Source: a virus
Virus record (IMG/VR): IMGVR_UViG_3300010885_025191
Span: 1-56,403 of that record
Direction: 5' to 3' (one strand)
Length of the DNA: 56,403 nucleotides
Part shown: positions 20,539 through 46,105 of the stretch, piece after piece
How the letters are laid out: each line of letters opens with the position of its first letter
Numbering within the stretch: position 1 is the stretch's first letter
Program-made: the position numbers and the translations under genes
Notes under the pieces: model-generated
Databases searched by the model: none
What the model was told of the DNA's origin: nothing
The model's input: only the letters and a program-made list of their open reading frames with translations

Positions 20539-22167
20539 ATGTCAACTCCAGTTTTAAACAATGGTATATTTCTACGAGATACCAACTACGCAGCTAGTTC
20601 ACACGTAGATTCTTACCACTTGGTTAACATGCTGAAGAATGCAGAACCAATGGACATGGGTCCAGTGGATTTGTGGGCAATGGCTCAAAAGGTCGAAATG
20701 CCACTTTATCAGATGTCTAGCTTTGGTGGAAAGAATGTAATTAACGTAGATAATGCTAGAGGTGAGTACAAGTGGCAGACCCCAGTTGTACAAGATCTTC
20801 CTTACATTATCGAAGATATTGAACCAAACAATATCACTAAAGGTATTGATGGTACAACCTTCAAAATCAAAATTTCACGTCGTGAGTTCGGTCATGGTGA
20901 TATCATCACTTATGATAAGTACAACGGTGTGGAAATGTACATTTCTCCTGATCAAGATATTCTTCCATTGGGTGAGGGCTTTATTTACACCGTTCAGTTG
21001 GTGAATAATGACAGCACTAAGTTTTTGGAAAACAGATATCTTGAATCTGGTACTAAAGTATTCCGTAAGGGTTCTGCCCGTGGGGAGTATGGTGAAAGAT
21101 TCTCTGATATTCAGATTCAGTCTGGCTACCGCGAGTTCTACAACTTCGTAGGTGGTGCTGAAGCTCACGTACACTATTCTATTTCATCTCGCGCTGATCT
21201 TATGATCAAGGGTGGTATGAATGCAGATGGTACTGTACCTGTAACTGAAATCTGGAGAAACTTTGACCAGAACATGGATCCTTCTATCACTAACCTTGAG
21301 AACATGGTTAGCCGTATGGGTAAGGAGTATGTTAAAAAGGCAATGTCAAATGGTAACCTTTCTCGTACCTTCTTGACCACAATGGAAGCAGCTCACTTGA
21401 CCAAAGTTGCAAGTGACATCGAAACTTACTTGATGTGGGGACAAGGTGGTAGAGTTCGTCAGGATGGTCCAGATGATGTAAGATTGTCTGTGGGTCTTTG
21501 GAAGCAGCTTGATAACTCTTTCAAGAGAGTTTACAACAAGTCTGGTTTCAACTTGGACTTGTTCCGTTCTGAAATCTACAACTTCTATGCTGGTAAGGTT
21601 GAGTTCAAGGGTCCAGATCCTAAGCGTCAACTTATTGTACAAACCGGTATGGGTGGTATGAGAATGATCAACGAAGCTATTAAGAAAGAAGCTGTAAACT
21701 CTGGTCTTCAGATTATGGCTGCTGATAACAATGGTATCGGTGCTATCACTGGTAAGGGAATGGATTTGAATTTCGGATTCGCCTTCACCTCATATGTGAT
21801 CCCATTCTTGGCAAATGTTAAGTTCGTATTGAACCCAGCATTTGACAACGTACATACCAATGACATTGAAAACCCAATCATTGATGGTTTCCCATTGTCA
21901 TCTTACAACTTCATCATCTTTGATATTACTGATAATACCAACGATAACATCTTCTTGTTGAAGTTGTCTTGGGATAATCAATTGAAGTGGTGGTATCAAA
22001 ACGGTACTATGGACTACATGGGTCGTACCCAAGGCTTCCAGTCTTCTGGTCAGTTCAATGGTTACCGTGTATACATGACTCAAACAATGCCAGCTATTTG
22101 GGTAAAAGACCCAACCAAGGTGTTGAAGATTGTTATGAGAAACCCTGTTACAGGCGGCTCATTCTAA
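20539..22167 (+). CDS. Major capsid protein
   Basis: This 542-residue protein follows the scaffold-like gene and precedes a strong terminator. It lacks signal and membrane segments, is mixed alpha/beta, and its length fits a capsid protein of the HK97 fold with an added domain, as in crAss-like phages. Codon use differs visibly from neighbours: CGT/CGC for Arg and TTG for Leu are frequent where other genes use AGA and mixed Leu codons, and AAC and TTC are preferred. That is a high-expression signature. Assignment is by position, size and codon bias, not by a sequence motif. Confidence 0.82.
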   Translation: MSTPVLNNGIFLRDTNYAASSHVDSYHLVNMLKNAEPMDMGPVDLWAMAQKVEMPLYQMSSFGGKNVINVDNARGEYKWQTPVVQDLPYIIEDIEPNNITKGIDGTTFKIKISRREFGHGDIITYDKYNGVEMYISPDQDILPLGEGFIYTVQLVNNDSTKFLENRYLESGTKVFRKGSARGEYGERFSDIQIQSGYREFYNFVGGAEAHVHYSISSRADLMIKGGMNADGTVPVTEIWRNFDQNMDPSITNLENMVSRMGKEYVKKAMSNGNLSRTFLTTMEAAHLTKVASDIETYLMWGQGGRVRQDGPDDVRLSVGLWKQLDNSFKRVYNKSGFNLDLFRSEIYNFYAGKVEFKGPDPKRQLIVQTGMGGMRMINEAIKKEAVNSGLQIMAADNNGIGAITGKGMDLNFGFAFTSYVIPFLANVKFVLNPAFDNVHTNDIENPIIDGFPLSSYNFIIFDITDNTNDNIFLLKLSWDNQLKWWYQNGTMDYMGRTQGFQSSGQFNGYRVYMTQTMPAIWVKDPTKVLKIVMRNPVTGGSF

Positions 22168-25700: not shown

Positions 25701-26405
25701 ATGTTAAACAGCACCCTTAGAATAAAGATTCAGCAGAGGCTTAATAAGCTAGCTAGTCAGGACTATGATAACATAGAATGCTGGCAGATAGTTGAAGCCT
25801 TTAATAAGGCCCAGATTGAATGGAGCCGTAGGCAGATCATGGGTCGTAATGTTGCTGAGGCAGGTGCTGAACAAACTGTAAGAAAAGTAGATGATTTACA
25901 GAACCTTCTTACAGTTATAAATCTAACTTCTATCCAAGCAGATGGGTTTTATCTAACCGCTCCTCTTCCTGATAACTACTTAGAGTATCACAAAATAGAT
26001 ATTACTGCTACTAAAGATTGCTGTACTGATCCTAAGGATATGATTGTATATCTAGTAGAAGAACAGAATAGCAGTATACTTCAAAGGGATGAGCTCCGTA
26101 AACCAAATTTTGAGTGGGCAGAAACCTTCTGCACTGTAATAGATAATTCAATAAGAGTTTACACTAACAATGATTTTGAAATCAGTGGAGTTAAACTTTT
26201 GTACTACAGACAGCCGGTTAAAATTCAAATCATAAACTGTGGTAATCCTTATACAGGAGGTATATCTGGCGTAGATATTCCATGTGAGTTTAGGGATGAT
26301 ATTGCTGAGATACTTGTAGATGCCGCTGCATCTATTATAGCTGGTGATATTGAATCTTTCAACCAGTATACAAGAACCTCTCAACAATCAGAAACCAATA
26401 CATAA
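25701..26405 (+). CDS. Connector-like virion protein
   Basis: This 234-residue protein has a helical N-terminus (IQQRLNKLASQDYDN, ECWQIVEAFNKAQIEW) followed by beta-rich sequence containing LPDNYLEYHKI and YYRQPVKI, and a final helix (RDDIAEILVDAAASIIAGD). This layout is seen in adaptor or head-completion proteins that sit under the portal, and I recall close relatives in Bacteroidota phage structural modules. No enzymatic motif is evident. Assignment as a head-tail adaptor is an inference; structure prediction would decide. Confidence 0.6.
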   Translation: MLNSTLRIKIQQRLNKLASQDYDNIECWQIVEAFNKAQIEWSRRQIMGRNVAEAGAEQTVRKVDDLQNLLTVINLTSIQADGFYLTAPLPDNYLEYHKIDITATKDCCTDPKDMIVYLVEEQNSSILQRDELRKPNFEWAETFCTVIDNSIRVYTNNDFEISGVKLLYYRQPVKIQIINCGNPYTGGISGVDIPCEFRDDIAEILVDAAASIIAGDIESFNQYTRTSQQSETNT

Positions 26406-26914: not shown

Positions 26915-28261
26915 ATGGCTTATTTTAACCATGCCTTTAACAAGGTATTCCTAGGCACAGGCGGTTTTGTGACTACGGCAATTGCTACTCAGAACTTGAC
27001 AGCAGGTCAGGTTGGATTTATAAATCCATACCCAGATCCTCTTGTTGCACCGGGTAGCAATAACTTTACATTGACTACTGCTCAACTTACTGCATCAAGA
27101 TGTCCGTTGGTACTTGTATCGGGATCAATTTATCAAAATGATAAAATTGGTCCATTCCACGGTGGATATCGTGAGACTACTAAGTCTAAGATCATCAATC
27201 CTAAGTACATCAGTAGGTTTTATTCAGTAATACCTTGTGATCTTCAGCAGGCTACTATCTCTGTAGGTGTTACTGATGATCCAGACACTGATCCAGTAGA
27301 AACTCCTACTTGCGCAAAAGATTTCATCTGCGGAAATAACTACTATCTCCGTGTTGATTTGAAGGGTTCACCTGCTCTCCGTTTCTTGAGCCGTAACTCT
27401 TACTTTACTGCAATGGCATACACTGGTTGCTGCCCTACTCTTGCTGAAGGTGAAACTGCTCCAGCAGTAGATCCAACTACAGTATACATTGCTTGGGCTA
27501 ACCAATTGATGCAGAGTCCTCTTATTGCTCCATTTATCCAAATTGCAGTTTTTGATACTGCTGGTGATGTAGTAGATACTGTAGCATATAATCAAGAAAC
27601 ATATAATGCAGCTATTGCTGCAGGTACTCCAGCTTGGAGCGGTTATACTCCAGGCGCTGGTCCATTTGAAGGTGAGACTGCTGGTATGATGATTACCGGT
27701 GCTTACATTGACACTCAGTTTGGTAACTGTACTTTCTATCCAAATGATGCCCTTCAGGCTTACTTGGAGCCAGTTAAAATCTACGCTTCTGAAGTAGATT
27801 ACAATGGTGATCCTTGTGCCTTCACAGGTCTTTGTGTTTTGAACAGCTGTCTTCCAATTCAAGGTTCGGGTTATGGTGAAGCTGTAGTTCGTGAATTGAT
27901 TCTCTCTGAGGCATATAATCAATCTCCTTTCTACACTGGACGTGACCTTCGTATCCGCGAGATTACTCAAGGTTATGATGTAACTAATGCAATTACCCGT
28001 ATTGCTCCTGGTGATAAGTACTACCGTTACTTCATTCAACACAGTGTTCCACGTTTCAACAACCCTTCTGGCACATTTGATAATGACCAGTACTTGTTGG
28101 AAATCGTAACATCTGTTGCAATTCCTGGAGCTACTATCACAGCTATTGAGAGCTGGATTGACAATGCTCAAGGTGCTGGTACTCCAGGCTGTGTTTCTTT
28201 GCAGACACTTCCTTGTCCAACAGCTTGTACTGTTCCTATTCCTCCAGTAGTAGCGCCTTAA
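26915..28261 (+). CDS. Probable abundant virion protein (second to capsid)
   Basis: This 448-residue, beta-rich protein opens AYFNHAFNKVFLGTGGFVTT and includes Cys-rich stretches (CAKDFICGNNYYLRVDLKG, TGCCP, QTLPCPTACTVP). It shares three high-expression marks with the capsid gene: a near-identical 18-base leader, frequent CGT/CGC and TTG codons, and a strong terminator right after. That suggests a protein made in many copies, such as a capsid auxiliary protein or a tail tube subunit. I recall similar proteins in related phages but no proven role. No signal or membrane segment is visible. Confidence 0.65.
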   Translation: MAYFNHAFNKVFLGTGGFVTTAIATQNLTAGQVGFINPYPDPLVAPGSNNFTLTTAQLTASRCPLVLVSGSIYQNDKIGPFHGGYRETTKSKIINPKYISRFYSVIPCDLQQATISVGVTDDPDTDPVETPTCAKDFICGNNYYLRVDLKGSPALRFLSRNSYFTAMAYTGCCPTLAEGETAPAVDPTTVYIAWANQLMQSPLIAPFIQIAVFDTAGDVVDTVAYNQETYNAAIAAGTPAWSGYTPGAGPFEGETAGMMITGAYIDTQFGNCTFYPNDALQAYLEPVKIYASEVDYNGDPCAFTGLCVLNSCLPIQGSGYGEAVVRELILSEAYNQSPFYTGRDLRIREITQGYDVTNAITRIAPGDKYYRYFIQHSVPRFNNPSGTFDNDQYLLEIVTSVAIPGATITAIESWIDNAQGAGTPGCVSLQTLPCPTACTVPIPPVVAP

Positions 28262-28333: not shown

Positions 28334-28894
28334 ATGGAAAAACATCAATTAGCCCTAGATATACCAGATACCCTGACAGCATGTATTTTCAGGGTTGTTG
28401 ATGCTAGTATTTATAGTAGCATAGCTCCAGTTGATTGTCCTAAGTTGTGGATTACACCTCCTGGCTTTACAACTACGTATGAGTACACGGAGTTAAATGA
28501 AGGATTTTTGGTAAACCTTAGTACCTGTGATATTGAGCTTCAGACAACAAATTGTGGAAATACCTACAATGCTTTTTCAGATGGAGTCTATATTGTAAAA
28601 TATGGTATCAAACCATACCAAACAGTATTTGTAGAATATAACCATCTTAGGGTTACTAATGCTCTTAATAAAATTAATGATCTTCTCTGCTGCATAGATG
28701 TTCAGGGATGTGAACCAACTGGCCCACTTAAGGAAAAACTTAAGGAAATTCAGTTACTTACAACTATGCTTAAGGCAGCAAAGGCTAAAGTAGAATATTG
28801 CCATAGCCCAAGACTGGGTATGGATATCTACAACTATGTACTTAGAAGATTAGATAAACTTGCTTGTGGCTGTGGATGTGGATCATGTAATTAA
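28334..28894 (+). CDS. Cys-containing virion-type protein
   Basis: This 186-residue protein has a beta-rich N-terminal 105 residues (LWITPPGFTTTYEY, GVYIVKYGIKPY) and helical remainder (LKEKLKEIQLLTTMLKAAKA). It ends in a Cys/Gly cluster (CGCGCGSCN). It carries 14 Cys, many near the C-terminus, which resembles a metal-binding or disulfide tail. It precedes a small protein with a similar Cys motif and the large surface proteins. A role in connecting appendages to the virion is possible. Confidence 0.55.
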   Translation: MEKHQLALDIPDTLTACIFRVVDASIYSSIAPVDCPKLWITPPGFTTTYEYTELNEGFLVNLSTCDIELQTTNCGNTYNAFSDGVYIVKYGIKPYQTVFVEYNHLRVTNALNKINDLLCCIDVQGCEPTGPLKEKLKEIQLLTTMLKAAKAKVEYCHSPRLGMDIYNYVLRRLDKLACGCGCGSCN

Positions 28895-28911: not shown

Positions 28912-29079
28912 ATGTCTAAATGTCCAAATTGCGGAAAAACAATGTCTTGTGGTTGTCAAAGAAGACAGCTAGCTAACGGTAAAATGGGTTGCAGTACTTG
29001 TGTACACAATACACAATCTTCATCAAATAAGACTGATGAAACTCCAACTATAAACAGTGCAGAACTAAAAGATAAATAG
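28912..29079 (+). CDS. Small CxxC zinc-ribbon-like protein
   Basis: This 55-residue protein begins MSKCPNCGKTMSCGCQRRQ, then MGCSTCVHN, giving seven Cys in pairs as in a zinc ribbon, followed by a polar tail. The opening CxxCGxxxSCGC is repeated at the N-terminus of the 2362-residue fibre (CSKCGSVNTSCGC), so this may be a free copy of that module. The start follows an ACCAACAT leader 17 bases after the previous stop. Confidence 0.55.
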   Translation: MSKCPNCGKTMSCGCQRRQLANGKMGCSTCVHNTQSSSNKTDETPTINSAELKDK

Positions 29080-29086
29080 TACACTT

Positions 29087-31969
29087 ATGCCTATTGTTAA
29101 AACATATGCCTTAACCACAGGAACAAGTCCCACAGGATTATATATTTCTAACGACTTAGGATTAACATGGACAATTGCGGCGGCAGGTGGTCTTAGTGCT
29201 AGTGGTTTAACATCCGTTGCTGCATCCCCGTATAATTCAGAAATAGTTCTCATAGGAGGTAGTTCAGGTATCAGTAAATCAACTGATGGAGGAGCAACAT
29301 TTACTAATGTTTATACTGGAAATAGTTGGAGACTTTTTTATAAAGATCAAGATAGCATTATATCTATTCCCTATGGTGGAGGAGGGTCAATTGCTATTTC
29401 TAACAACAATGGCAGTACTTTTACACCTACTTTAACTAATATAATAACTGAACTGTGCCTTGGTGCTGACCCAGCTCTTACTACAAATGTAACAGCAGTC
29501 TATTTTACCAATAATAGTTCTGGGTTTATCTCCGTATTTTTTACTGATTTAGCTACAGGATTTAGAAGAAATAGAATATGGAGAACTACAGATGGAGGAT
29601 ATACCTGGATAAACGGAATTGACTTATTTACAACTTCTCCTGTTACAGATATACATGCTGATTTAGACGCAGATAAAGTTATACTAGTTACAGAGACTGA
29701 TGGTATATGGGAAGTTGATTATGCTCTTTTAGGTATTATTACACAAAATTATACTAATGCTGAAATTCCCGCCGGCGTTGGTGCCACCCTTCATCAAGTT
29801 GGTGTAGATCCTTCAAAAGTTTATTTCATATCGTCACAAGGATATATATATTATTCCTCAAATAGCGGCAGTGTTTTCACAGTAAGAAATACTATACCAT
29901 TATCTGGAGGATCTTATCCAGGCATCTTTGCTTATAGCGAAGATACTATTGTAGCCTTCACCGGCACATCAGCAGAAATTTATAGATCAACTGATGGTGG
30001 TGTTACTTTAACATCTGTGTATACTGCTGATGGAAGAACTATTGGATTCGATTCTTCAGTAGCTTATGAATGTGGCACATGTCCTCCAGGATTTGAGGAG
30101 GTTTCTAGCGGTAGCCCAGCTAATCCTACTATAAGTTGTGAAAGGACTACACTAGGAGGACCACTTTGTGATCCACCTTCATTCTATGATACAGTAACAA
30201 ATCAGTGCGCTATACCAAGTTCTGCAATACCCTTCAATATTGTATTAAATGTAGATACATCAGGAAGTATATCTAATGCTCAAAATGATGAAAGAGATAA
30301 ACTAATCCTGTTCTTGAAACTGTTTATAGATGAAATGGCTGAGCGTCTTATAACAGGAAACACAAAGATTGCAGTTGTTTTATGGAATTCTACATCTTGT
30401 CTCCAGCAAGATTTTACAGGTGATGTTGATCTATTAAAAGAGGCAATGGATGGTATAATTTCTCCTACAACAGAAGATCAACCATATGTTAATCCAGCTT
30501 GTACGGCAGCAGGATATAAAGCATCTGGTGGAACTCAACATGCTGTAGGTTTTGCGGCATCTGTTAGAGCTCTTCATGCCCAAGCAAATTTGAGACCTAG
30601 TGGGCAAAATGTAATTATTACATGTACTGATGGTAATGGTATTGGAAATGCAAATCTTACTGACTTAGGTTATAATACAGTAGTTTCTGGTCTAGATGAC
30701 TACTGCGGTATGATTGCACTTACTGATGAGGTAAAAGCTAATCTAGCTGGAAAACCTTCTAAAGTGATGCTTCTTGTAGTAGGAGAACCTGGTGAAAGAC
30801 AAAGTGTGGAAAATGCATTTATTAATAGAAACTGCCCAGGAACATCTAGATATTATCCTAGTTTAAATGATGATGGACTACCTTATTATTATGATGCTGG
30901 AAACTTTAATACAGTAGCTGATTTTGCAAAACAACTTATTATAGGTTTAGAGGCACAGTTTACCCCAGCAGCTACTTGTCCTGAAGGCTGTATAGATGTT
31001 CCAGGTAGGGATAATTTGGGTTATTGCGAATGTACTGAGGAACTTCCTCTTACCCCCTGTAATTTTCTTTTAACAGATTGCCTGGAGCCTACAATTACAA
31101 TTATAACTGATACCGATCTATCTACTTATGATGGTCAAGTTATAACCATTCAAGGTCAGAGCAACTGCTTTAGTGTATCTCAAGCAGACTCTATTGATCC
31201 AAATGCTCAAACAGTTATTGTAGCTGAGTCTTTTGGAACATGCCCTGAGTGTGCCCTATCATTTGCTCTTATTAACTGTAGGGATAGAAATATAGTTTAC
31301 TACACAGTTCAAGAAGAGTTTTTACCATTTATTGATCCAAGTAGAATTGTTACACTAGAAGAGTTTCCCGGGGAATGCTGGACAGTAATTAGAAATACAG
31401 AAGCTTCATATACTCCTCAGGTATTTACACTAAACCCTAGGTCATATGCTACATGTCCTGAGTGTGTAGGTAATTATTTTTATCTAACAAGTTGTACAGA
31501 AGAGCAGTCTTTTATACTTACAGATACAGATCTTACTGAATACTTAGATCAAACCGTAAGTATAGCCGGATTCCCAGGAGCTTGTTTTCTTGTTCAAAGA
31601 CAGGCTTGTAATTGTATATCAGTAAGACTTTTTTCTAAAGTCTCAGGCATTAGAACTTATAAAGTAGAAAGAGCTCCTGTTCTTATTAATGATAGAAATC
31701 AGTATATCATTGTTACTGGAAAAGGAGAAAGAATCTTAATTGCTTTTGATATTGAAGAAAACCGCTGGGAAGTTTGGAACATTGACACAGATACACTACT
31801 TTCTTATAGTGTAGTTAATGAAGAGTGTCCTTACACAAGTTTGTGGGAAAATACTTCGGCAGATGATTTTGAAATGTTATCTATTACATCTTGTGATGCC
31901 TCTGTATATACTGTAGAAGTAGATGGTCAATACTTAGATTGTGAGTGTTGTTTATTTAAAAACTGCTAA
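29087..31969 (+). CDS. BNR beta-propeller + vWA domain + Cys-rich repeat surface protein
   Basis: This is a 960-residue protein. Residues 1-330 contain BNR/sortilin-like propeller motifs: STDGGATFTN (about 65), TTDGGYTWIN (about 167), SSNSGSVFTV (about 257) and STDGGVTLTS (about 301). A Cys-rich linker (CGTCPPGFEE) follows. Residues about 380-600 form a von Willebrand A domain with complete MIDAS residues: DTSGS (Asp390, Ser392, Ser394), Thr483 and Asp515. The C-terminal third holds repeats of a Cys motif (TDTDLSTYDGQVITI ... CFSV ... CPEC). Such a protein could bind glycans and proteins at the host surface in a metal-dependent way. It is probably a tail appendage; there is no signal peptide. 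Confidence 0.75.
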   Translation: MPIVKTYALTTGTSPTGLYISNDLGLTWTIAAAGGLSASGLTSVAASPYNSEIVLIGGSSGISKSTDGGATFTNVYTGNSWRLFYKDQDSIISIPYGGGGSIAISNNNGSTFTPTLTNIITELCLGADPALTTNVTAVYFTNNSSGFISVFFTDLATGFRRNRIWRTTDGGYTWINGIDLFTTSPVTDIHADLDADKVILVTETDGIWEVDYALLGIITQNYTNAEIPAGVGATLHQVGVDPSKVYFISSQGYIYYSSNSGSVFTVRNTIPLSGGSYPGIFAYSEDTIVAFTGTSAEIYRSTDGGVTLTSVYTADGRTIGFDSSVAYECGTCPPGFEEVSSGSPANPTISCERTTLGGPLCDPPSFYDTVTNQCAIPSSAIPFNIVLNVDTSGSISNAQNDERDKLILFLKLFIDEMAERLITGNTKIAVVLWNSTSCLQQDFTGDVDLLKEAMDGIISPTTEDQPYVNPACTAAGYKASGGTQHAVGFAASVRALHAQANLRPSGQNVIITCTDGNGIGNANLTDLGYNTVVSGLDDYCGMIALTDEVKANLAGKPSKVMLLVVGEPGERQSVENAFINRNCPGTSRYYPSLNDDGLPYYYDAGNFNTVADFAKQLIIGLEAQFTPAATCPEGCIDVPGRDNLGYCECTEELPLTPCNFLLTDCLEPTITIITDTDLSTYDGQVITIQGQSNCFSVSQADSIDPNAQTVIVAESFGTCPECALSFALINCRDRNIVYYTVQEEFLPFIDPSRIVTLEEFPGECWTVIRNTEASYTPQVFTLNPRSYATCPECVGNYFYLTSCTEEQSFILTDTDLTEYLDQTVSIAGFPGACFLVQRQACNCISVRLFSKVSGIRTYKVERAPVLINDRNQYIIVTGKGERILIAFDIEENRWEVWNIDTDTLLSYSVVNEECPYTSLWENTSADDFEMLSITSCDASVYTVEVDGQYLDCECCLFKNC

Positions 31970-31974
31970 GAAAA

Positions 31975-32850
31975 ATGATAGGAAATAAATGTTTTACGTT
32001 CAGAAGCTGTGTAAATCAGGATGAATTAGTTTACATCCAGGCTACTCGCGATTCTGATGTTGATGTTTTCCTATCGAGTCAGGGAGGTCTTGGTCTAGAG
32101 GTAAATGATCCAATACACTTTCCGGATACATATTATACGTTAATCAACATCTGTGGAGTTTATATAGACTGTCCAGAATGCTATGATGTAGAAGTAATAC
32201 TATATGACGACTACATCAGAAATTTAAATCCTACAGGATTATCTGAATGTCCGACTCCTGCTGAAGCTTACGTACTTTCTAATTGTAGATATACGGGAAC
32301 TTTTGAAAATCCTGAAAGTATTTTACAGAATCCAGACACTTTATTAGTAACATCCTCTAATCTACTTGTATACGTAGGTATGGTTGTTACTCTTGAAGAG
32401 CATCCTGATAATTGTTATACAGTATATGGACCCTATACAGAACTTACAGGCTGTCCCTGTGAATTTGTTACAGTTCAAAATGCTTCAGGGGACTGCACTT
32501 GTTGTTTAGGTGAAGAACTAAAACCACCTATAGAAAGAGTAATTCCTAAACCTGTAAGAATATTTTATCACATTACTGACACAGAATGTGAGATACGAGA
32601 TAATACAACTTTTGCTAATAACTACTACAGACTATTTACAGGAATCCGTTATGGAATCCAGAACTGTTGTGGAGATGTAGACTTTGAAAAACTGTGGATA
32701 AGAAAGGAGTTATCAGATTATTCAAGGATAAATCCTCCTACAACCTGTGCTCCACCTGTGATAGAGGACTGTCCTGATCCATGTCCAGCTCCAGAACCAA
32801 TTGGATGTTTACCGGTAGATGGAATTACCGCAACAGGAACCTTCTCATAA
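31975..32850 (+). CDS. Cys-rich repeat virion protein
   Basis: In this 291-residue protein the segment YVLSNCR ... LLVYVGMVVTLEEHPDNCYTV ... CPCEFVTV repeats the Cys module found three to four times at the end of the preceding protein. Also present are CGVYIDCPECYDV and CTCCLGEE. The C-terminal 90 residues differ and end in a Cys/Pro-rich tail (CPDPCPAPEPIGC). It probably assembles with the upstream protein. There is no enzymatic motif or signal peptide. Confidence 0.6.
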   Translation: MIGNKCFTFRSCVNQDELVYIQATRDSDVDVFLSSQGGLGLEVNDPIHFPDTYYTLINICGVYIDCPECYDVEVILYDDYIRNLNPTGLSECPTPAEAYVLSNCRYTGTFENPESILQNPDTLLVTSSNLLVYVGMVVTLEEHPDNCYTVYGPYTELTGCPCEFVTVQNASGDCTCCLGEELKPPIERVIPKPVRIFYHITDTECEIRDNTTFANNYYRLFTGIRYGIQNCCGDVDFEKLWIRKELSDYSRINPPTTCAPPVIEDCPDPCPAPEPIGCLPVDGITATGTFS

Positions 32851-32887: not shown

Positions 32888-34480
32888 ATGGCACTTCCTA
32901 TAAAAGCTAACAATACCCAGGAGGGTTGCAATCCTATAGCTTCAAACTGTGTAATTTGGCAAGGTCCAGATATTCCCTGCATTAAACTTTGTAATGGAGA
33001 TACAGTTAGTGATGTTTCTGCAAAACTAGCAGAAAGGCTATGTGTTATTCTAGACTACTTGGATGTTGGTGGATACGACCTATCTTGTTTTAATCCGGTT
33101 TGTCCTAGTCCAAAAGATTTTCAAGATCTTGTACAATTTATTCTTACTAGAATTTGTGCTCTTGAAAATATAGAATTGGATCCAACTACTCCTGGAGGAG
33201 GTTGTCCAGATACATGTATTGTTTCAATAGCACCGTGTTTTCAAGAAAATGATTTCTTGGGTAATTTGATCACGACCTTACCCTTAAGAGATTACGTAAT
33301 TAAAGTAGGCAATGAACTTTGTAGTTTACTAGCCACTGTTAATTCACAGGGTACTGCTATTGCTGATTTAGAAACAAGAGTAACATTTATTGAAGATAAC
33401 TGTTGTGACGCAGGAGGAGGCATTACTGATATTACAACAACAGGTTGTGTAGGTAATGGAACAACTCAACCAATACAATTATTCCTATCTCAATTTGAGA
33501 CGGCTTTCTGTTCTCTTCAAGAAATTACAGCAGGTGAGGGTTTAAGTGATGCTCAAGAAACTCTGCAGAATCTTTGTCTTACTGGACGTGAAGATCAGCT
33601 TGTACCGCAGATATTAAATCCAGGAGTTTCTGTTGCACTAAGTTTAATATCAGGATGGTATGAACCTGTAAGTAATACATCACAAGCTCTTAATAATTTA
33701 TACCTAGCTTTTTGTGATTTGAGAACTTATGTAGAAACTGTTTTACCAGCTCTGGTAACTTCTGTAAATCAGTGTTGCGGTGTTACATGTGCTGATCTCA
33801 GTTTTACCCTAAGTGGAAATGGTGCCCAAGATAAATACATATTTGTAACTCCAGCAGGAGATAATATTCCATCTGGCTTTACATACTGTGCTACCCCTAC
33901 TAGTAAAATAATAGTTGAGCACATGGGTACAGGAGTCACAAAAACATTTAATGTTACTGCAGGTAGTAATGATGTAATAGAAGCAATTAATACATCATCA
34001 TTTGTAAATGCTCCAACTGGATTAGATATGTCATCTGGAACAGGAAGTGGAGAACAAAGTATATGGTTTAGGACATGTGTAGACATGTGTTTAACAGACG
34101 GTACTCTTACATGTAATTCATCTAAATGTGTGGAGTTTTATAATACAAACATATGTTCACTAATACAAGTTACTGCGACAGCTACTGCACTTACTACTAC
34201 TACTGGTAGCGTTACTGTTCAATGGACTCCACTGCTTCTTGCTAGTGGGTACACAATTCAGATATATAACACAGCAGGATTTCCTGTAGGAGCACCATCT
34301 CCAACTTTCAGCAGCAGTACTAGTTGGACATCACCTCCACTTCCTGGTGGTACTTCATATTACGCAACAATAAATGTTTGTCAAAACAGCGCTAGTTGGG
34401 GAACTAAGTGCCTACCTGTAGGATGCTCTAGTGGCTCTGTTACTGTTCCAGTATTACCACTTCCTCCTGATCTAGGTTAA
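32888..34480 (+). CDS. Cys-rich structural protein with C-terminal FN3-like domain
   Basis: In this 530-residue protein the first 400 residues mix helices and Cys-rich loops (NPIASNCVIWQGPDIPC, CFNPVCPSPKDF) with an internal coiled segment (ADLETRVTFIED). Residues about 425-515 look like a fibronectin type III domain (VTVQWTPLLLASGYTIQIY, TSYYATINVC). The start follows AAATTAAAGATATG, also found in front of the giant fibre. It is probably a baseplate or adhesin-connecting protein. Confidence 0.55.
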   Translation: MALPIKANNTQEGCNPIASNCVIWQGPDIPCIKLCNGDTVSDVSAKLAERLCVILDYLDVGGYDLSCFNPVCPSPKDFQDLVQFILTRICALENIELDPTTPGGGCPDTCIVSIAPCFQENDFLGNLITTLPLRDYVIKVGNELCSLLATVNSQGTAIADLETRVTFIEDNCCDAGGGITDITTTGCVGNGTTQPIQLFLSQFETAFCSLQEITAGEGLSDAQETLQNLCLTGREDQLVPQILNPGVSVALSLISGWYEPVSNTSQALNNLYLAFCDLRTYVETVLPALVTSVNQCCGVTCADLSFTLSGNGAQDKYIFVTPAGDNIPSGFTYCATPTSKIIVEHMGTGVTKTFNVTAGSNDVIEAINTSSFVNAPTGLDMSSGTGSGEQSIWFRTCVDMCLTDGTLTCNSSKCVEFYNTNICSLIQVTATATALTTTTGSVTVQWTPLLLASGYTIQIYNTAGFPVGAPSPTFSSSTSWTSPPLPGGTSYYATINVCQNSASWGTKCLPVGCSSGSVTVPVLPLPPDLG

Positions 34481-34523: not shown

Positions 34524-37500
34524 ATGAGTTGTTCAAAATGTGGGTCTGTAAATACTAGCTGTGGATGTAACGACACTGCTTATACCACACCAAAAGTTTA
34601 TACTTGTCCTCCTGATACATCTTGCCCTCAACCGGTAAGATGTTCAGAGTTTATGGATGCTGCTTGTATATTTCTTAATGACGGTATTGCTGATGCGGGT
34701 GTTCAGCCCGGCTCATCACTTGAAAGTATTGTTCAACAACTGATTCTATTAATAACTAATCCTGGTTGTGTAGATGCACCTGGTGGTGTACCTGGTGGAG
34801 GAACCGTTACGTTTATTGATGCTGTATGGCCGGGTAATGCAATTACAATTGTTGGTGGCCCAATATCTAATAGTGGGCAATTTGTTTTCAATGGTAATGG
34901 AACATCAAATCAATACATTGATGGTCAGGGTAATCTTCAAATTTTTCCTTCTATCAGTGTTCCTGTGGAATTCCAAACTAATGGAACACCTAACAGTACA
35001 CAAACTCTTTTAAATCTTGTATCTGGCACAGGAGTGACTCTCACTGAGTCAGGTGGTAGTGTTACTATTGATGTAGAGGCAAATGTCTATACTGTAGACA
35101 ATGGTCTAAGTGCTGATCCAACTGATGCTAATAATTTTCAGTTAGGTTCTGCAACAGCACCTGGGGCTCCTCTTATTCATGATACATATATAGCCGGTGC
35201 TCAGTTCAGATTTGAAGTAAACAATACTGGTTCTATGTTCCTCCAGGGAAATAGAGTAGATATTGAAGGTGGTGGATCAGGAGCAATGCTGTTGTCTACT
35301 GGTGGTGCAAGTGAAAACAGTGTCGAGGTAACAGGTACTCAAGTAGCAATTGATTCAACATCTCCTTCTGCCACTACTAAAATATTTCTTGATCCTCTTA
35401 GAATTAGAATTCAGACACCACTTTTTAATTTAAAAGATAATGGTGATGTTTTAACACTTATTGATAAGACAACCGGTGAAGTAGAATATATGCCTGCTGC
35501 TGGTATTTTACTACAGACAGATGGTACAGATAATACCGATCAGGAGTTACTTAATCTTGTTTCAGGTAATGGCATTACACTCACAAATGTTGGTGGTGAT
35601 GTAACCATTGATGGACCTTTGTTCCAAACTGATGGATCTGATAATGGGGATCAAACTCTTTTAAACCTTATTGCAGGAACAGGTATAACACTAACAGAAA
35701 TCAATGGTGAAGTAACTATAGATGCTGATGCTCCTGCTATCAATCTTACAACAAATGATATTGGTGGCGCGTCTACATATGATCCTGGTACAGGAGATTT
35801 AAATATTCCTATTTATCAAACTCAGCTTGATATTCAAGACGAAGGTGTTAGTACAGCAATTAATCCTGACTTCCTTAATTTTATTGGGGATGCTGTTACT
35901 GTTACTTTATCTGGAACCGGAGCAGATATTACAATTACAGGTGGTACTCCATATGTTGTTGCAAACGGTCTTCATGCTTTTGGAGATGCTCCTGGAGAAA
36001 GTCCTGCTGACCCATACTTGTTCCATCTTGGTGGAACCCTTGTTGAAAATACAGAGATCAATCTTGATACAACTTATACATTAGATGTACTTGCCACAAC
36101 TGGTAAGAAGATGCTGCATCTTGAATCTGGTCTTGTTAGAATCGGAGATATTGATGACGTTACATCATCGGGTTTAAACACCTATGTTGAGATTGGTCAG
36201 TCTTTTAAAGTGCTTTATGGTGGTAGGGGATTAGAAGTAAATGAAGGAACTGGATATTGGGCAATAGGTGATCTTGATGATATTGGTCTTGGGACTAAAA
36301 TAGAAATTAAGAATTCTGGGCAAAAGATTGAAATGCTTGGAGAAATTGGTGGGACATATAATAAAAGAGGTTTTTACCAAACTTATGGAAGTGAAGTTTT
36401 AACTATATTAGGAGATATAGATAGTGGAGTAAATGGAACTCAATATTCCTGTGATGATGTTAATGAATTACATAGTTTCAATAAAAGATTACAGTTTTCA
36501 AATTACAATAATTCAACTGCTTATCAATCATGGGTTGTTGACGGGACAACATATAATGCAGGTTCATCTGCAGGTGTTCTTAATGTAGATAATTTGGGTA
36601 ATGTATTTGTTTCATCAGGTACTGCTCTAAGTATACAAGTTGATGGTTCACCATTCTCTAGTTCATCATTACTAAACTTTACATCTAGTGCAGATATTGG
36701 TGTTACAGATTTAGGTGGAGGAGCTATTCAGTTTTCTCTTGTTACACCTATTGTTACATACACTAGTGATGAAGGTGTTTATAATGACTCTAATACATTT
36801 AAACTTGGAACTCCTGCTACAGATTTAAATGCTGCTGATTTCCAAGAAGACAGATATATTGTTACAAATGCTTTTGACTTATATATTTCAGGACCGGGTA
36901 ATACAACTACATCAGGTATTTTAAATGTAAGTGGTGGTAGTTATGCTATACAAGGTTCGGGAACTACTCGCGGTGTAACAGGTGTTTCTACAGGAGGGGT
37001 CACGGGTTCTCATGGTGGCTACTTTGAAGGATTTGAGGCAATAAATGCCCTATCATTAGATGAAGGTGGTAAGGGAATTATAGTTAATATATCAAATAAT
37101 GCGGGCTTAATAAACTCACAAATTCTTGAGGGTAGTGCTATTACGTTTAGTGGTGATAGCTCTACATACAAAGCTTTAAGTTTATCAAGAGGTCATCTAT
37201 CTACAACTCCTGCACAAAATTTTGGAATCAATGTTGATCTTAGTTTAGCTACAAACTTTAGTGGGCTTGCGGGAGCTGCAATTGTTTCTAATTCTATTAT
37301 AACTAAATGGTTTGACCCTGCTTCAACATCTGCTAAATCCCAGTTTGAAATTCACGGTTTAACTAATGGACCTGCAACTCTTTCTTCACAATTTACAATT
37401 CTTGGTGGAGGCACTTCTGGGGCCTGGTCTCTTATTGCTGGCCAGATTAAGTTTGATAAATATGCCGCGGGTGCTATTTATAAACCAGCTGATGATCTTG

Positions 37501-40500
37501 TAGCAGCTTCAGGGTTCAATCTTGGTATTGACGCTAATGGTAATATCTGGGCAACAGATTTTAGTACATCTACAGGTCCTGTAACAGGAGTGTCTAGTAT
37601 TTCAATTGGCACATTAACTAATGGTGCTGCAGCTACTGTAACCAATCCTTCTGGTCCAGCAGCATCAATTAATATTACAGGTCAGAATGCATATACTCAA
37701 ATTGCAGCTGACTCAGGTGCAGCATCAGCTAATACCTTTAACTCTTTATTTAGTGTAGTAGGTGCAGATGGTATTACTACAAGTGTTACAAATAGTACTT
37801 CTCCAGCTAGTGATATTATAACTGTTACAGGTCCGGACAAGTATTTGAACTTTGTAACTAAGAATATTTTAGGTGGTACGATTGCAACATATACCCCAAC
37901 AATTTGGAATGATACCTTAAATATTCAAGCAGGTACTGGAATTACCATTACTAATGGTGGTTCTGCAAATACAATTGTTATTTCTGGTGGTAGTGGAGGA
38001 CCAGGGGTTAGTAATGTAACGGGTGTAAATGGTAACGGGTTTACTGTAGGTGTTACTAATGGTACAACTACACCAGCTATTACTGTTGGGACAAGTATTA
38101 CTGGTGTCCTTGTAGGTAATGGTACTGCAGTAAGTGCTGTAACTGGCACAGGAGTGATGGTGTTCTCTGGAACCGGTTATACTTTCCAGGCTCTTCCTAC
38201 AGTAAACAATGGTGCCCTTAATGCAGCTATAGGTACTAATGCAGCAACAGGTATTGCTGTTCAGTGGGGTACAGCAACAGGATTTACGGCTAACATAGCA
38301 ACCACTGTTCAATATGATTTAAGAATAGGCCCAGCTTTAGTAAACCTTGCTACATACATGACTCAAACACTTCCTCTAAACCCTACACCGGGTCCAGGAG
38401 TGTTAGCTACAAGACCTGTATATATTAGAAAAACAGGTCAAGATATTTATACTGATGCCACACCTGTAACAACATTCTCTCCTGGAACTACAGGCTTTAC
38501 GGTTACTAGTGGATTCAGTACAGCAACTGCATTAGGTATAAATGAGAATGTAGTTCTTGGCGGTGTACTTAATGTTTCTAGTGGTGGTACTGGTTTAACA
38601 ACTGCTCCTGGAAATGGACAGATACTTATTGGTAATGGCACAGGCTATACTGTAGCCAACATTAGTGCAGGTAGTGGTATTAGCGTTACTAATACAGCTG
38701 GCGGTATTCAAATTGCAGCTACAGGTATTACTGGACCTAGTGCACTAAATGGTTTACATATCCATGCTCTAGATGGTTCAATAAGATTAGGTTCAGGTAC
38801 ACCTGCGGATGTTGATGTTATTACACCACTTATTGAAAGAACTGATATCAGAATGAATGGTCAGATCTATAGACTGAGTAATCTTAATCAGGGTTATATA
38901 TCTGATATTGGTTTTCAAATAGATGATGCAGCAGGTCAAAAGATTGGATATCTCGGATCAAGTACAAGTACTTCAGTTACTGCGGCAAATCCTCCTCAAT
39001 CTGGATTTGTTTTCTCTGGGGAAGGGGGTACTGCACTTACGTCATATAATGGTTTTTACATTGACCGTACTGTTTTAGCAGAACTAAAAGTTTACTCTGG
39101 TTTTTCATCAAGTGTAAGGCAAGTAATTGCTAGATCTGCTACTGCTGCTAGTAATAAACTTACCCAAGTTGGCACATGGGGTAGTCCTGGAACAATAGAT
39201 AGCACATTCTATGAAGCTATTCCATCAGCTAGAACAATTCAAATAGGTTCTACTGCTGGAAACAACAACTGGATAAAACTTGATGATGCTAACCAAAGAG
39301 TAGATTTTAATAAATCTACTATTTATGCTAGTGCTTATGGAGGTGGTGCAGTAACAGGAACACTTGCTTATCTGATTGGTACTGATGCGACTGGTAAGTT
39401 CTTTGAATTTACTGGTAGATCTATTAGCCAAATTACAGGTAATACAGGTTCATTCTCTGCTGGGTCAATGGCATCTTCCACATCAGCCGTTTCATTTAGC
39501 ATTCAAGGAAGTGGTACAATTAACACCACTATTGCTGGTAACGTCCTTACCATTAGTAACTCTGCAACAGCATTCCCATATTGGAGTAGCATTACTACAG
39601 CGGCCACAGCAGGTGGTACTGGTACTGTTACAGGTGCTTCACCAATTAATCCTCAAGTAGTTGGAGCAAATAACCTTCAGTTTAATGCGGGATCCGGAAT
39701 AACACTAAGAACGGTTGCTGCAGCACTTGGCTCAGCAACTGGATCACTTATTGAGATTACAAACAATGGTTTAGTAAGTCTTGTCACAGGAGCAGCAAAT
39801 GCTTTTAGCATAGTTGCTGCTGTTGGTAATCCTGGTGCACTTACTTTAAATATTCCATATCAATGGAGAAACATAGCTGTTAGCAATACTGGTGCTGCTA
39901 TTGGTGTAGGTACCACACCTGTAACACCAAATCTTGCTCTTAGTGCACTAACATTTAATGGTGGTCCTGGAATTACATTAAATACTGACACAGGAAGCAG
40001 AACAGTTACTATATCAGCTACCGGATCAGGAACCACTCTTCCTGCCACAAACGGTGTATGGGTAGATACTGCGCCTACTCCTGACGAATACAGACTTGGA
40101 TCTAATACAGATGGACCATCTACATTTACTCAAAATAGATTTATTGATGCCCAAGCTAGCTTTCTTCAAATTAAAGGAGCTCCCACAACAGGTGATGGCA
40201 ATGGTATTCTAAAACTTTTGAGTAGTGGAGCAGGTAGAGGACTAAGAGTAGAGAATACAAACGCTTCTCCTGATGGTGCTATCTACGCTACATCAGCACA
40301 GCTTACAAGTACTGATGCTGCTCCAACAGGTGCTATCTATGGTAATAGCTCAGGAGTAGGTTCGGCAATTGTGGGTGATGGTTCTGATACAGCTGGAACA
40401 ACCACAAGACCTGCTATATTCGGTAAGGGCTATATTGGTGTAAAAGGACATAATACAATAGCTCAGCTTGTGGCAGGAGGCTCTGTTGCTGGCGGTGTAG

Positions 40501-41612
40501 GTGTGTATGGTACTTCAATTCCTCCTGCGCAAGGAACAGGTTCATTTTGGGGTGTTGTTGGTTCAACTTTAAATGCAACATCTTTATTAATTCCTGAACT
40601 AGCTAACGTAGGTACTGGTGTATATGGAGAAGCACAAGGAAACACCAGGGGTGGAACTTATGGTACAGCTTCAGATCTTAAGACATTTGCAGCAAGATTT
40701 GTAATCAATACTCAAAGTGGTGGTCAGTTACCAACAACTGGTACAAGTGTGGGCATTCGCTCAATGAATAAAGTAGCTGATGTTCTTCAACTTGTTAGAT
40801 TAAATGATACTATTGCATCATCTATCGGTATAGGAAATGCTATAGTTTTTAATATAGAAGGAAATAATCCCTCCCCATTTGCAGATGGTTGGAAAGCAGG
40901 AAGAGTTGGATATAAATTAGAACAGGTTACTAATGTATTGGGTGACCCTTCTAGATTTTTTGTAACCACTACTTCTGCATCTAGAGGGGAAAGAGAAACA
41001 TTAGCTATTGAATCAACAGGGCAAGTAGCATTTGCAGAATATTCTACTATAAATGTTCCGCCATCAGATTCTGGACAATTTCCTCCAACAATAAATACCG
41101 TAACCGGATATACGAATTATTATGATTATAGTGTTTTAGGTACTAAATCTACAGTTGCACAAGCCGATCAAGTTATAGGAAGAATTGACACACTTAGAAG
41201 TCGTCATGGTCAGTATGATCCTGCAACAATAGTAATTAATGGCACAACAGGATATAACGCTAGCAATATGACTGTTGTTATTACTCGTGCTTATTTTACT
41301 TCACTAAATAATATTGCTACTGTTCATGTGAATGGCTCATTGACTTTTACAGCTGGCATAGCTGGTGTCAAAAGTTTTGATATGCCTCTTCCTATTCCTC
41401 TTGGAGCTTCTGCTAATTTTGTAACAGGTGATGTAGTGCAGACTGTTACCTTAGATAACTATTCATTACACCCGTCCATAAATTTAATTTCTGGATCAAC
41501 TACATCTACTCCTTCAGGTCAAAGATACAAAGTAAACTTTGACACTGATTCCCTTACCATATCAGGAAATAGTTCACCTTTCTCGGCAATATTTACATAT
41601 AAACTTATATAA
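34524..41612 (+). CDS. Giant tail fibre, 2362 residues
   Basis: The N-terminus has a Cys module (CSKCGSVNTSCGC, then CPPDTSCPQPVRC) that may anchor it. Fibre repeats follow: QTNGTPNSTQTLLNL at about 152, QTDGTDNTDQELLNL at about 331 and QTDGSDNGDQTLLNL at about 368, each continuing into SGTGVTLT-like strands. SGGTGLTTAPGNGQILIGNG near 1352 is a typical long-tail-fibre motif. Gly, Thr, Ser and Asn dominate throughout. The C-terminus is beta-rich without a recognisable peptidase S74 chaperone signature. It would project from the tail for receptor binding. It is the largest gene in the window. Confidence 0.82.
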   Translation: MSCSKCGSVNTSCGCNDTAYTTPKVYTCPPDTSCPQPVRCSEFMDAACIFLNDGIADAGVQPGSSLESIVQQLILLITNPGCVDAPGGVPGGGTVTFIDAVWPGNAITIVGGPISNSGQFVFNGNGTSNQYIDGQGNLQIFPSISVPVEFQTNGTPNSTQTLLNLVSGTGVTLTESGGSVTIDVEANVYTVDNGLSADPTDANNFQLGSATAPGAPLIHDTYIAGAQFRFEVNNTGSMFLQGNRVDIEGGGSGAMLLSTGGASENSVEVTGTQVAIDSTSPSATTKIFLDPLRIRIQTPLFNLKDNGDVLTLIDKTTGEVEYMPAAGILLQTDGTDNTDQELLNLVSGNGITLTNVGGDVTIDGPLFQTDGSDNGDQTLLNLIAGTGITLTEINGEVTIDADAPAINLTTNDIGGASTYDPGTGDLNIPIYQTQLDIQDEGVSTAINPDFLNFIGDAVTVTLSGTGADITITGGTPYVVANGLHAFGDAPGESPADPYLFHLGGTLVENTEINLDTTYTLDVLATTGKKMLHLESGLVRIGDIDDVTSSGLNTYVEIGQSFKVLYGGRGLEVNEGTGYWAIGDLDDIGLGTKIEIKNSGQKIEMLGEIGGTYNKRGFYQTYGSEVLTILGDIDSGVNGTQYSCDDVNELHSFNKRLQFSNYNNSTAYQSWVVDGTTYNAGSSAGVLNVDNLGNVFVSSGTALSIQVDGSPFSSSSLLNFTSSADIGVTDLGGGAIQFSLVTPIVTYTSDEGVYNDSNTFKLGTPATDLNAADFQEDRYIVTNAFDLYISGPGNTTTSGILNVSGGSYAIQGSGTTRGVTGVSTGGVTGSHGGYFEGFEAINALSLDEGGKGIIVNISNNAGLINSQILEGSAITFSGDSSTYKALSLSRGHLSTTPAQNFGINVDLSLATNFSGLAGAAIVSNSIITKWFDPASTSAKSQFEIHGLTNGPATLSSQFTILGGGTSGAWSLIAGQIKFDKYAAGAIYKPADDLVAASGFNLGIDANGNIWATDFSTSTGPVTGVSSISIGTLTNGAAATVTNPSGPAASINITGQNAYTQIAADSGAASANTFNSLFSVVGADGITTSVTNSTSPASDIITVTGPDKYLNFVTKNILGGTIATYTPTIWNDTLNIQAGTGITITNGGSANTIVISGGSGGPGVSNVTGVNGNGFTVGVTNGTTTPAITVGTSITGVLVGNGTAVSAVTGTGVMVFSGTGYTFQALPTVNNGALNAAIGTNAATGIAVQWGTATGFTANIATTVQYDLRIGPALVNLATYMTQTLPLNPTPGPGVLATRPVYIRKTGQDIYTDATPVTTFSPGTTGFTVTSGFSTATALGINENVVLGGVLNVSSGGTGLTTAPGNGQILIGNGTGYTVANISAGSGISVTNTAGGIQIAATGITGPSALNGLHIHALDGSIRLGSGTPADVDVITPLIERTDIRMNGQIYRLSNLNQGYISDIGFQIDDAAGQKIGYLGSSTSTSVTAANPPQSGFVFSGEGGTALTSYNGFYIDRTVLAELKVYSGFSSSVRQVIARSATAASNKLTQVGTWGSPGTIDSTFYEAIPSARTIQIGSTAGNNNWIKLDDANQRVDFNKSTIYASAYGGGAVTGTLAYLIGTDATGKFFEFTGRSISQITGNTGSFSAGSMASSTSAVSFSIQGSGTINTTIAGNVLTISNSATAFPYWSSITTAATAGGTGTVTGASPINPQVVGANNLQFNAGSGITLRTVAAALGSATGSLIEITNNGLVSLVTGAANAFSIVAAVGNPGALTLNIPYQWRNIAVSNTGAAIGVGTTPVTPNLALSALTFNGGPGITLNTDTGSRTVTISATGSGTTLPATNGVWVDTAPTPDEYRLGSNTDGPSTFTQNRFIDAQASFLQIKGAPTTGDGNGILKLLSSGAGRGLRVENTNASPDGAIYATSAQLTSTDAAPTGAIYGNSSGVGSAIVGDGSDTAGTTTRPAIFGKGYIGVKGHNTIAQLVAGGSVAGGVGVYGTSIPPAQGTGSFWGVVGSTLNATSLLIPELANVGTGVYGEAQGNTRGGTYGTASDLKTFAARFVINTQSGGQLPTTGTSVGIRSMNKVADVLQLVRLNDTIASSIGIGNAIVFNIEGNNPSPFADGWKAGRVGYKLEQVTNVLGDPSRFFVTTTSASRGERETLAIESTGQVAFAEYSTINVPPSDSGQFPPTINTVTGYTNYYDYSVLGTKSTVAQADQVIGRIDTLRSRHGQYDPATIVINGTTGYNASNMTVVITRAYFTSLNNIATVHVNGSLTFTAGIAGVKSFDMPLPIPLGASANFVTGDVVQTVTLDNYSLHPSINLISGSTTSTPSGQRYKVNFDTDSLTISGNSSPFSAIFTYKLI

Positions 41613-43926: not shown

Positions 43927-44517
43927 ATGATGAGGGAGTTTAAAAAACCAGATCTCAATGCCCCAAGATATAGACCAAAAGTTTATAATGTACTCAGCCC
44001 AGATCTCTTTAAACAGTTTAAAGAGAAATACCCTAAGTACAGTGATGTAAGTTATAAAACATTTAAGGATGTTATAAAGAAGGCTAATGAGATTATATGG
44101 AATAATGTGATTGAGAACCGAGATGGAGTAGAGCTACCAGAAAGTTTAGGTTATTTGTTTATTGGCACATGTAATCCCGCAGTAAAAAAAGATAACGTAA
44201 ACTACGGGAAATCAATTAAATACGGCGCAAAGGTGTCATATCAAAATTGGGAATCTGATGGCAAGTTAGGTAAGATATTTTATACGAACTATTCTGTAAA
44301 GTATAAAGTTCAGGATAGACAGATATGGAACTTTATACCATGCCGAAATTTTAAAAGGGCTGTTTCTAAAGAATACCCTGAGAACTGGACAAAGTATGTA
44401 AAGATAGAGAATAACATGAGGATATCAAAGATGTATAATCTCATTGCCTATGAGCATAGAAAAGCAGAGGCAATGATAAAAGATATCCAGAACTATAACG
44501 AATTTGATATAGACTAA
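43927..44517 (+). CDS. Conserved crAss-like phage protein of unknown function
   Basis: In this 196-residue protein the stretches NRDGVELPESLGYLFIGTC, YGAKVSYQNWESDGKLGKIFYTNY and NFKRAVSKEYPENW are ones I recall from a family widespread in crAss-like and other Bacteroidota phages, located before the tail connector genes. It is basic and mixed alpha/beta. Its function is unknown. TAATG overlap with the next gene suggests coupled expression with the connector proteins. Confidence 0.65.
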   Translation: MMREFKKPDLNAPRYRPKVYNVLSPDLFKQFKEKYPKYSDVSYKTFKDVIKKANEIIWNNVIENRDGVELPESLGYLFIGTCNPAVKKDNVNYGKSIKYGAKVSYQNWESDGKLGKIFYTNYSVKYKVQDRQIWNFIPCRNFKRAVSKEYPENWTKYVKIENNMRISKMYNLIAYEHRKAEAMIKDIQNYNEFDID

Positions 44518-45191
44518 TGACTACAATCGGAGAAAGTATATCTAGGATTAGAAACCTGGTTAAGGCAGCTAAGCAGGATGCCTTTATGACTGATAGATTT
44601 ATCTATAGTCTTATTGTGAAGTATGCTAAGCTGTATATTAAAAGACAGGATAATCTAAATATTAGATTAAAATTTGCTAGTCTTTTCCGAACTCTACCCT
44701 GTGTAGAACTTATAGAAACAAATAGAATAGAGGCTTGCTGTGGCTCATTGCCAACTTCATGTAGAATTATGAGAACCAGGGAAAAGATTCCTCTTCCTTT
44801 TGAGGGTTCTTATGGTCCGTTTATTAGAACAGTGGCATCTATAGATGGGTCTACTGAAGTGTATAGAACCCAACCATCAGCATTTGTATCTATGAGCAAG
44901 ACAACTGCTTTTAAATACAACAATCAAAAGTACTATTGGTATATGAATGGCTATCTCTATTTGCCAAATGTGGAGTGGGATGCTGTATTATTAGAAGGTA
45001 TATTTCAGGATGACATCTCAATTTTTACATGTAGTACTGAGGACACATGTAATGTTAGACAAAACGAGATCCTTCCTATTCCGGATGATCTTTTTGCTGA
45101 AGTAGAGAAGCAGGTTTTACAGGATCTGTCTATTGAGATACAAGTACCTGTAGATACAAATATTTCTGATAAACAAAACATTCTAAGATAA
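44517..45191 (+). CDS. Tail connector protein, crAss-like type
   Basis: This 224-residue protein opens MTTIGESISRIRNLVKAAKQ, then has TDRFIYSLIVKYAKLYIKRQ. I associate this start with a conserved structural protein of crAss-like phages. The middle is beta-rich with several Cys and ends in a short helical tail. Position between the preceding conserved gene and the tubular-type proteins supports a ring or collar role under the portal. It overlaps both neighbours by one base (TAATG). Confidence 0.65.
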   Translation: MTTIGESISRIRNLVKAAKQDAFMTDRFIYSLIVKYAKLYIKRQDNLNIRLKFASLFRTLPCVELIETNRIEACCGSLPTSCRIMRTREKIPLPFEGSYGPFIRTVASIDGSTEVYRTQPSAFVSMSKTTAFKYNNQKYYWYMNGYLYLPNVEWDAVLLEGIFQDDISIFTCSTEDTCNVRQNEILPIPDDLFAEVEKQVLQDLSIEIQVPVDTNISDKQNILR

Positions 45192-46105
45192 TGGATTATA
45201 ACTACACCCTGAAATACAGGACCTTTGATTCTCTTCTTGAGGATGTTAAAATGGATCTTAGAAACTTGTCAGCTGATACTAGCGTTGAGCCAGGTCAGCT
45301 GATTAAGATTGCCCGTAAGTGCAACTATGACTTAGGTCTTAGAATACAAAGAACTGGAGAAACTGTACTTGAGATATGTAAGGGTAAAGCTAGACTTCCT
45401 GAAGATTTTCAGGTGATGAACTTTGCTCTTATCTGTGGTAACTACACTGTAGTAGAAGTTCCCCCACAGGGAACTAATGTGCAGCAGATTGTTCCTGGAT
45501 ATAGACCTTGGATTGAAGGGAGCACATGTACAGATGCTAATGGTACATCACCAGAGACTACATGTATGACCCAGTGTGGCACAGATTATACTCTTGTGCA
45601 AATGGTTAATACAGTAAGAAGAGAGTTTAGAACCTTCTCCCCTATATCATTTAGAAGTTCACAGTTTATAGACGTAGACTGTCCTAATGCCTGTTCACCA
45701 AGATGGCAGAACAAAGATGAGGCTTATATTAGAGATGGCTGGGTATATACCAACTTTGAAGATGGTAATATATATATTAACTACCAAGCAGATATGGTAG
45801 ATTCTCACGGTAATTTAATTGTGCCGGATCATCCTATGCTAAATGAATACTATGAATATTCTTTGAAAAAGCGTATTATGGAAAACCTTGTGATGGATAA
45901 TGTGAATGTATCTTCTCAATATCAATTGATTGCGGGTGAACTAAGAGCTGCTAGAAATAATGCCTTGACAATTGTCAATACTCCAAACTTCTCAGAGATG
46001 ATGAGAATGTGGGCAGCCAATAGAAAAGCTATGTACGCTAAGTACTACAACATGTTTAAAAGTTACTACTATCCTATTACTCTTAGAGTAAATAACGCAT
46101 TGTAA
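45191..46105 (+). CDS. Tail tubular / ring protein, crAss-like type
   Basis: This 304-residue protein has a helical N-terminus (FDSLLEDVKMDLRNL, PGQLIKIARKCNYDLGLRI), central beta-rich region with Cys, and a helical C-terminus (YEYSLKKRIMENLVMDN, MMRMWAANRKAMYAKYYNMF). This layout resembles gp4/gp11-type tail adaptor proteins of podoviruses. I infer a part of the short tail or its connector. It follows the previous gene by TAATG and precedes the 1708-residue protein by one base. Confidence 0.62.
   Translation: MDYNYTLKYRTFDSLLEDVKMDLRNLSADTSVEPGQLIKIARKCNYDLGLRIQRTGETVLEICKGKARLPEDFQVMNFALICGNYTVVEVPPQGTNVQQIVPGYRPWIEGSTCTDANGTSPETTCMTQCGTDYTLVQMVNTVRREFRTFSPISFRSSQFIDVDCPNACSPRWQNKDEAYIRDGWVYTNFEDGNIYINYQADMVDSHGNLIVPDHPMLNEYYEYSLKKRIMENLVMDNVNVSSQYQLIAGELRAARNNALTIVNTPNFSEMMRMWAANRKAMYAKYYNMFKSYYYPITLRVNNAL

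Follow-up and report, generated by a model that had tools for sequence, protein, structure and literature searches.

A putative exchangeable tail adhesin joining a propeller, a vWA domain and Cys repeats in a crAss-like phage

MIDAS-bearing vWA domains within modular surface adhesins are found in SpaC (L. rhamnosus GG), Mfa5 (P. gingivalis) and PilB (S. sanguinis), the last being described as a bimodular adhesive pilin (PMC8179133). The protein analysed here, named the slot protein below, shares this design, whereas SpaC, PilB and Mfa5 are bacterial pilus proteins and the slot protein is encoded by a phage. To our knowledge, none of the three has a propeller or a Cys-repeat scaffold like that of the slot protein. 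In the phage-tail-derived fibres of eCIS, the receptor-binding domains are exchangeable and include VWA and beta-propeller modules (PMC12923769); eCIS are different particles, and a fusion of propeller, vWA and Cys repeats is unreported in the passages covered. In crAss001, the tail is disulfide-stabilised and the tail-fibre/fibre-hub genes lie between ring-protein genes, a placement resembling that of the slot region (PMC10172136). The slot protein, S186 and S448 had no sequence match to gp22, gp36, gp38 or gp39 of crAss001.

The slot propeller has Asp-box repeats and propeller fold in common with YCF48, GH74, sortilin and F510_1955, and differs from these families in falling below their curated cut-offs and in its single, predicted seven-bladed propeller: sortilin has ten blades, and GH74 enzymes have two propellers with the catalytic cleft between them. 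The kind of function proposed below is a known one; the architecture, the scaffold repeat and the exchange site appear to be new, this architecture being undescribed on any phage in the literature covered (most subscription papers lie outside that coverage).

The phage and the neighbourhood of the slot gene

The window, i.e. the whole 56,403-nt stretch of DNA analysed, corresponds to a linear virus record of 56.4 kb (IMGVR_UViG_3300010885_025191). Its gene content assigns it to a crAss-like phage (Crassvirales or a sister group): a crass-type capsid, TerL and portal genes matched by PHROG profiles, and ring proteins; family HMMs of the window's portal and ring genes matched the crAss001 portal, R2 and R1. 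Judged by the capsid, the nearest named record was Leptolyngbya phage Lbo-JY46 (27.5% identity), and the slot protein, S448 and CYS2 had zero relatives among 50,697 GenBank phages, indicating that the lineage is uncultured except for distant cousins. A host call from MAG bins was dropped, the seven bins being mixed (Bacteroidota in 2/7, the others in different phyla).

Single-sequence searches of IMG/VR and of the same GenBank phages with the slot protein found zero relatives, and a phmmer search of the PDB gave chance matches alone, e.g. nanobodies. Relatives were reached via synteny with a structural neighbour: a scan with S234, a conserved structural protein, returned at least 80 loci. The order recurring in these loci was S234 - G144 - S448 - S186 - slot - (CYS2) - FIB, single contigs often being incomplete; the slot is the varying gene in this otherwise recurring order, seen in dozens of related uncultured contigs. 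In the window, the slot gene shares its direction with the structural block around it and occupies a conserved position between S234 and R2/R1 (Table 1). Part of FIB weakly resembled the N-terminus of a Leptolyngbya phage tail fibre (hhalign probability 65). S448 and S186 were also considered as crAss001 tail-hub genes, and profile comparison gave no match.

Table 1 Features of the window and of the slot gene.
Feature	Coordinates	Strand	Basis
Major capsid protein, crass type	20539..22167	+	Pfam Crass_capsid 5e-31
S234, conserved virion structural protein, synteny anchor	25701..26405	+	phrog_29507 3.1e-10
S448, conserved 448-aa gene upstream of slot	26915..28261	+	synteny
S186, conserved 186-aa gene, upstream border of slot	28334..28894	+	synteny
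Slot gene: propeller, vWA and Cys-repeat protein, putative tail adhesin	29087..31969	+	ORF, profiles, model
Predicted seven-bladed Asp-box (BNR) propeller, residues 1-326	29087..30064	+	model, VIA, Asp boxes
Cys-rich linker, residues 327-382 (C329, C332, C351, C361, C374)	30065..30232	+	
vWA domain with MIDAS, residues 383-621	30233..30949	+	profiles, alignment, model
Cys repeat 1, residues 655-722	31049..31252	+	repeat HMM 3.5e-18
Cys repeat 2, residues 723-793	31253..31465	+	repeat HMM 1.6e-14
Cys repeat 3, partial, residues 793-855	31463..31651	+	repeat HMM 3.3e-13
Subgroup C-terminal domain, residues 856-960, six Cys	31652..31966	+	alignment
CYS2, second Cys-rich slot protein, one repeat (residues 92-177)	31975..32850	+	synteny, repeat HMM
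FIB, fibre-like protein	32888..34480	+	synteny, hhalign
2362-aa fibre-like protein, Cys-rich N-terminus, without family match	34524..41612	+	sequence
Ring protein R2 homologue (crAss001 gp40)	44517..45191	+	HMM 5e-12, hhalign 96%
Ring protein R1 homologue (crAss001 gp43)	45191..46105	+	HMM 7.1e-7, hhalign 92%

Other genes of the window include: an unlisted 55-aa Cys-rich ORF directly before the slot gene (28912-29079, +; MSKCPNCGKTMSCGCQ...CSTC), L004-L007 and L088 having similar DNA ahead of their slot genes; a 144-aa gene within the structural block (26408-26842, +) that matched phrog_858, "starvation-inducible transcriptional regulator" (1.5e-21); two neighbouring subtilase genes (4010-8211, +; Pfam Peptidase_S8 1.2e-38 and 4.9e-24); and, after this pair, a CHAP-domain gene (8494-9054).

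Domains of the slot protein

The ORF boundaries given in the initial annotation were exact, the product being a 960-aa protein with an ATG start. AlphaFold2 run on the single sequence gave an unusable model (pLDDT 36), and the 16-sequence alignment A3 was used instead, yielding a mean pLDDT of 80.2 and a pTM of 0.56, a value at which the arrangement of the domains in the model is unreliable. Both folds anticipated by the initial annotation were present in this prediction, one as a propeller and the other as a succession of strands and helices of the vWA type.

Residues 1-326 are modelled as a seven-bladed Asp-box propeller, made of 27 strands. The VIA structure comparison, which covered residues 1-327 only, matched seven-bladed propellers at Z ~24-25, one of them with Z 25.1 across 291 residues. 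The BNR motifs noticed at the outset were indeed visible, their number by regular expression being five (residues 21, 65, 105, 167 and 301) and not four; five Asp boxes occurred in 0/10,000 shuffles of residues 1-330 (mean 0.04). Two independent profiles concurred in pointing to a propeller, each scoring below its curated cut-off: NCBIfam F510_1955, 5.5e-19 with 68.4 bits vs a curated cut-off of 175, leaving membership in this glycosylhydrolase family unsupported; and Pfam Sortilin-Vps10, 1.2e-6 with 28.1 bits vs 33. The description of the propeller as sortilin-like was consequently abandoned, as was Sortilin/Vps10 domain identity, because the model has seven blades, not ten, and the Pfam score is below cut-off.

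For residues 383-621, the succession of strands and helices in the AlphaFold2 model, together with the Pfam VWA matches of relatives (41.9, 44.5 and 40.8 bits vs a gathering score of 23.8, far above it), indicates the alternating strand-helix (Rossmann-like) vWA fold; on the window protein itself, TIGR03436 (vWA) matched at 3.6e-7, below its cut-off. The MIDAS set was complete and every residue stood where the initial annotation had placed it (D390-T-S392-G-S394, T483, D515), all being invariant in the first six-member alignment. Compared with the PDB, a vWA profile of five relatives gave weak to moderate matches (1.6e-6 to 0.009) to collagen VI, CaV alpha2-delta, complement C2, integrin alpha-L and the Mfa5 fimbrial subunit; SpaC was among the Foldseek matches. 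Since vWA domains are common in bacteria and archaea too, the label "eukaryote-like" attached to this domain is unnecessary. Across 14 vWA members, the MIDAS was intact in 11 and degenerate (D-x-G-x-S) in L099, L101 and L102, which form one clade, indicating that metal-dependent binding is not general in the family; for the window protein, its residues make such binding plausible. A vWA-like annotation also exists for crAss001 gp52 (20502-21269 in L116), which lies outside the virion block, a different context.

The Cys-rich repeats resolved into three copies of a 68-residue repeat (consensus CEPTCYKLTDCDDEEEIIYTSTDLSAYVGQVVKIEGYPGTCWTVEETEECEPAIIVTVTESYEDCEEC) followed by a C-terminal region, which aligned across L005-L007, L014, L025, L084 and L088. 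The repeat occurred 182 times at E < 1e-3, spread over 66/111 deduplicated slot ORFs (short and partial ORFs counted in). No Pfam family matched it above chance level and no PDB sequence matched it. It appears to be a previously undescribed scaffold, and no other element of the slot is shared so widely.

Slot architectures and module exchange

Relatives were called propeller-bearing by at least three Asp boxes, plus profile matches where scanned. A propeller and/or a vWA domain was present in 24 of the 111 slot ORFs (both modules 11, propeller only 10, vWA only 3), all 24 carrying the Cys repeat; 45 slot ORFs had none of the tested modules. Two further architectures were observed: in L084 (7992-14939, a contig shared with L019), a single slot holds two tandem paralogues with propeller, vWA and Cys repeats; and in L057 (13863-17003), the slot protein has 1046 aa, FG-GAP repeats (Pfam 3.2e-10) and few Cys, and is without the usual modules.

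Module swapping was found among L005, L006, L007 and L088, whose mutual identity was 92-98% in S234, 95-99% in S186 and 87-92% in CYS2. Their slots encode different modules: PA14-like only in L005, a weak label (Pfam E 0.0084 in L004, below cut-off; the middle regions of L004 and L005 are ~40% identical); vWA only in L007; and propeller plus vWA in both L006 and L088, which share 96% identity in the propeller vs 55% in the vWA domain. The slot is not the sole variable gene of these four phages, since S448 (58-94%) and FIB (54-64%) differ among them too. The window is more remote: compared with these four its flanking genes showed ~59-88% identity, and its propeller, vWA and repeats near 30-35%. 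A window-L007 vWA identity of 50% was disregarded, as that alignment had free ends. Exchange of binding modules beside near-identical structural genes is a usual mark of receptor-binding genes. Near-identical phages with different front domains in one slot therefore most likely differ in an exchangeable host-attachment protein, and at the level of sequence this locus combines a tail-block position with exchanged binding modules, as would be expected of a receptor-binding protein.

Candidate function of the slot protein

We consider it probable that this crAss-like phage uses the slot protein as a tail adhesin, an exchangeable protein located on the virion and binding the receptor. The host-binding device proposed in the initial annotation stands as to its role, which tail-block synteny and module swapping between near-identical phages make well supported as a prediction; its sortilin-like and eukaryote-like wording is corrected above. 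The Cys repeats and the C-terminal domain would form a stalk or docking scaffold, probably disulfide-stabilised given that crAss001 tails are so stabilised (PMC10172136), anchoring the slot protein, alongside CYS2 and the fibre proteins, in the tail appendages. The propeller at the N-terminus and the vWA domain would project outward and attach to the host, the propeller through a glycan or protein and the MIDAS metal through an acidic ligand group of its surface, by analogy with pilus-tip adhesins. A change of receptor would then consist in exchanging the front modules on the conserved repeat scaffold. Several observations count against this adhesin model: the degenerate MIDAS in 3/14 members; the lack of a match of S448/S186 to crAss001 tail-hub genes; the pTM of 0.56; and the C-terminal position of the shared part, docking in most phage fibres being N-terminal.

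An enzymatic role, in which the propeller would break down host capsule or slime as a glycoside hydrolase or depolymerase and the vWA domain would only hold substrate or position, is suggested by the GH74 xyloglucanases among the closest Foldseek matches, by the glycosylhydrolase name of the NCBIfam match and by the enzymatic tail spikes proposed for Crassvirales (PMC10136315). We regard this as unlikely: the F510_1955 score is far below cut-off (68 vs 175 bits), GH74 uses two propellers and a cleft where the slot protein has one propeller, and the propeller is often missing from the slot. The presence of the Cys repeat in CYS2 as well, and the many slot proteins in which repeats and unassigned sequence make up the chain and no binding module was detected, would fit a mainly structural or decorative virion protein (e.g. 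collar or capsid decoration) with weak and general adhesion; exchange of front modules among near-identical phages is unexpected of a purely structural part, which makes this reading rather improbable too. Secreted bacterial proteins also have vWA and BNR domains, as would a non-virion host-cell or secreted protein serving, e.g., superinfection exclusion or host-host adhesion, yet the N-terminus lacks signal-peptide-like features and the gene keeps a conserved place in a co-directional structural block, and we give this last explanation very little credence.

Returning to the exchangeable tail adhesin, host recognition by environmental crAss-like phages is largely unexplained, and in dozens of genomes from uncultured phages this locus names a probable adhesin and the site of its exchange, marked by the Cys repeat. 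With near-identical flanks and different binding modules, L005, L006, L007 and L088 make host recognition directly testable. More speculatively, a large uncultured crAss-like lineage might attach by integrin-like metal-dependent vWA adhesion, through a cassette site that exchanges propeller, vWA, PA14-like and FG-GAP modules, mostly on an undescribed disulfide repeat scaffold; the locus points to a possible use of MIDAS chemistry by a phage.
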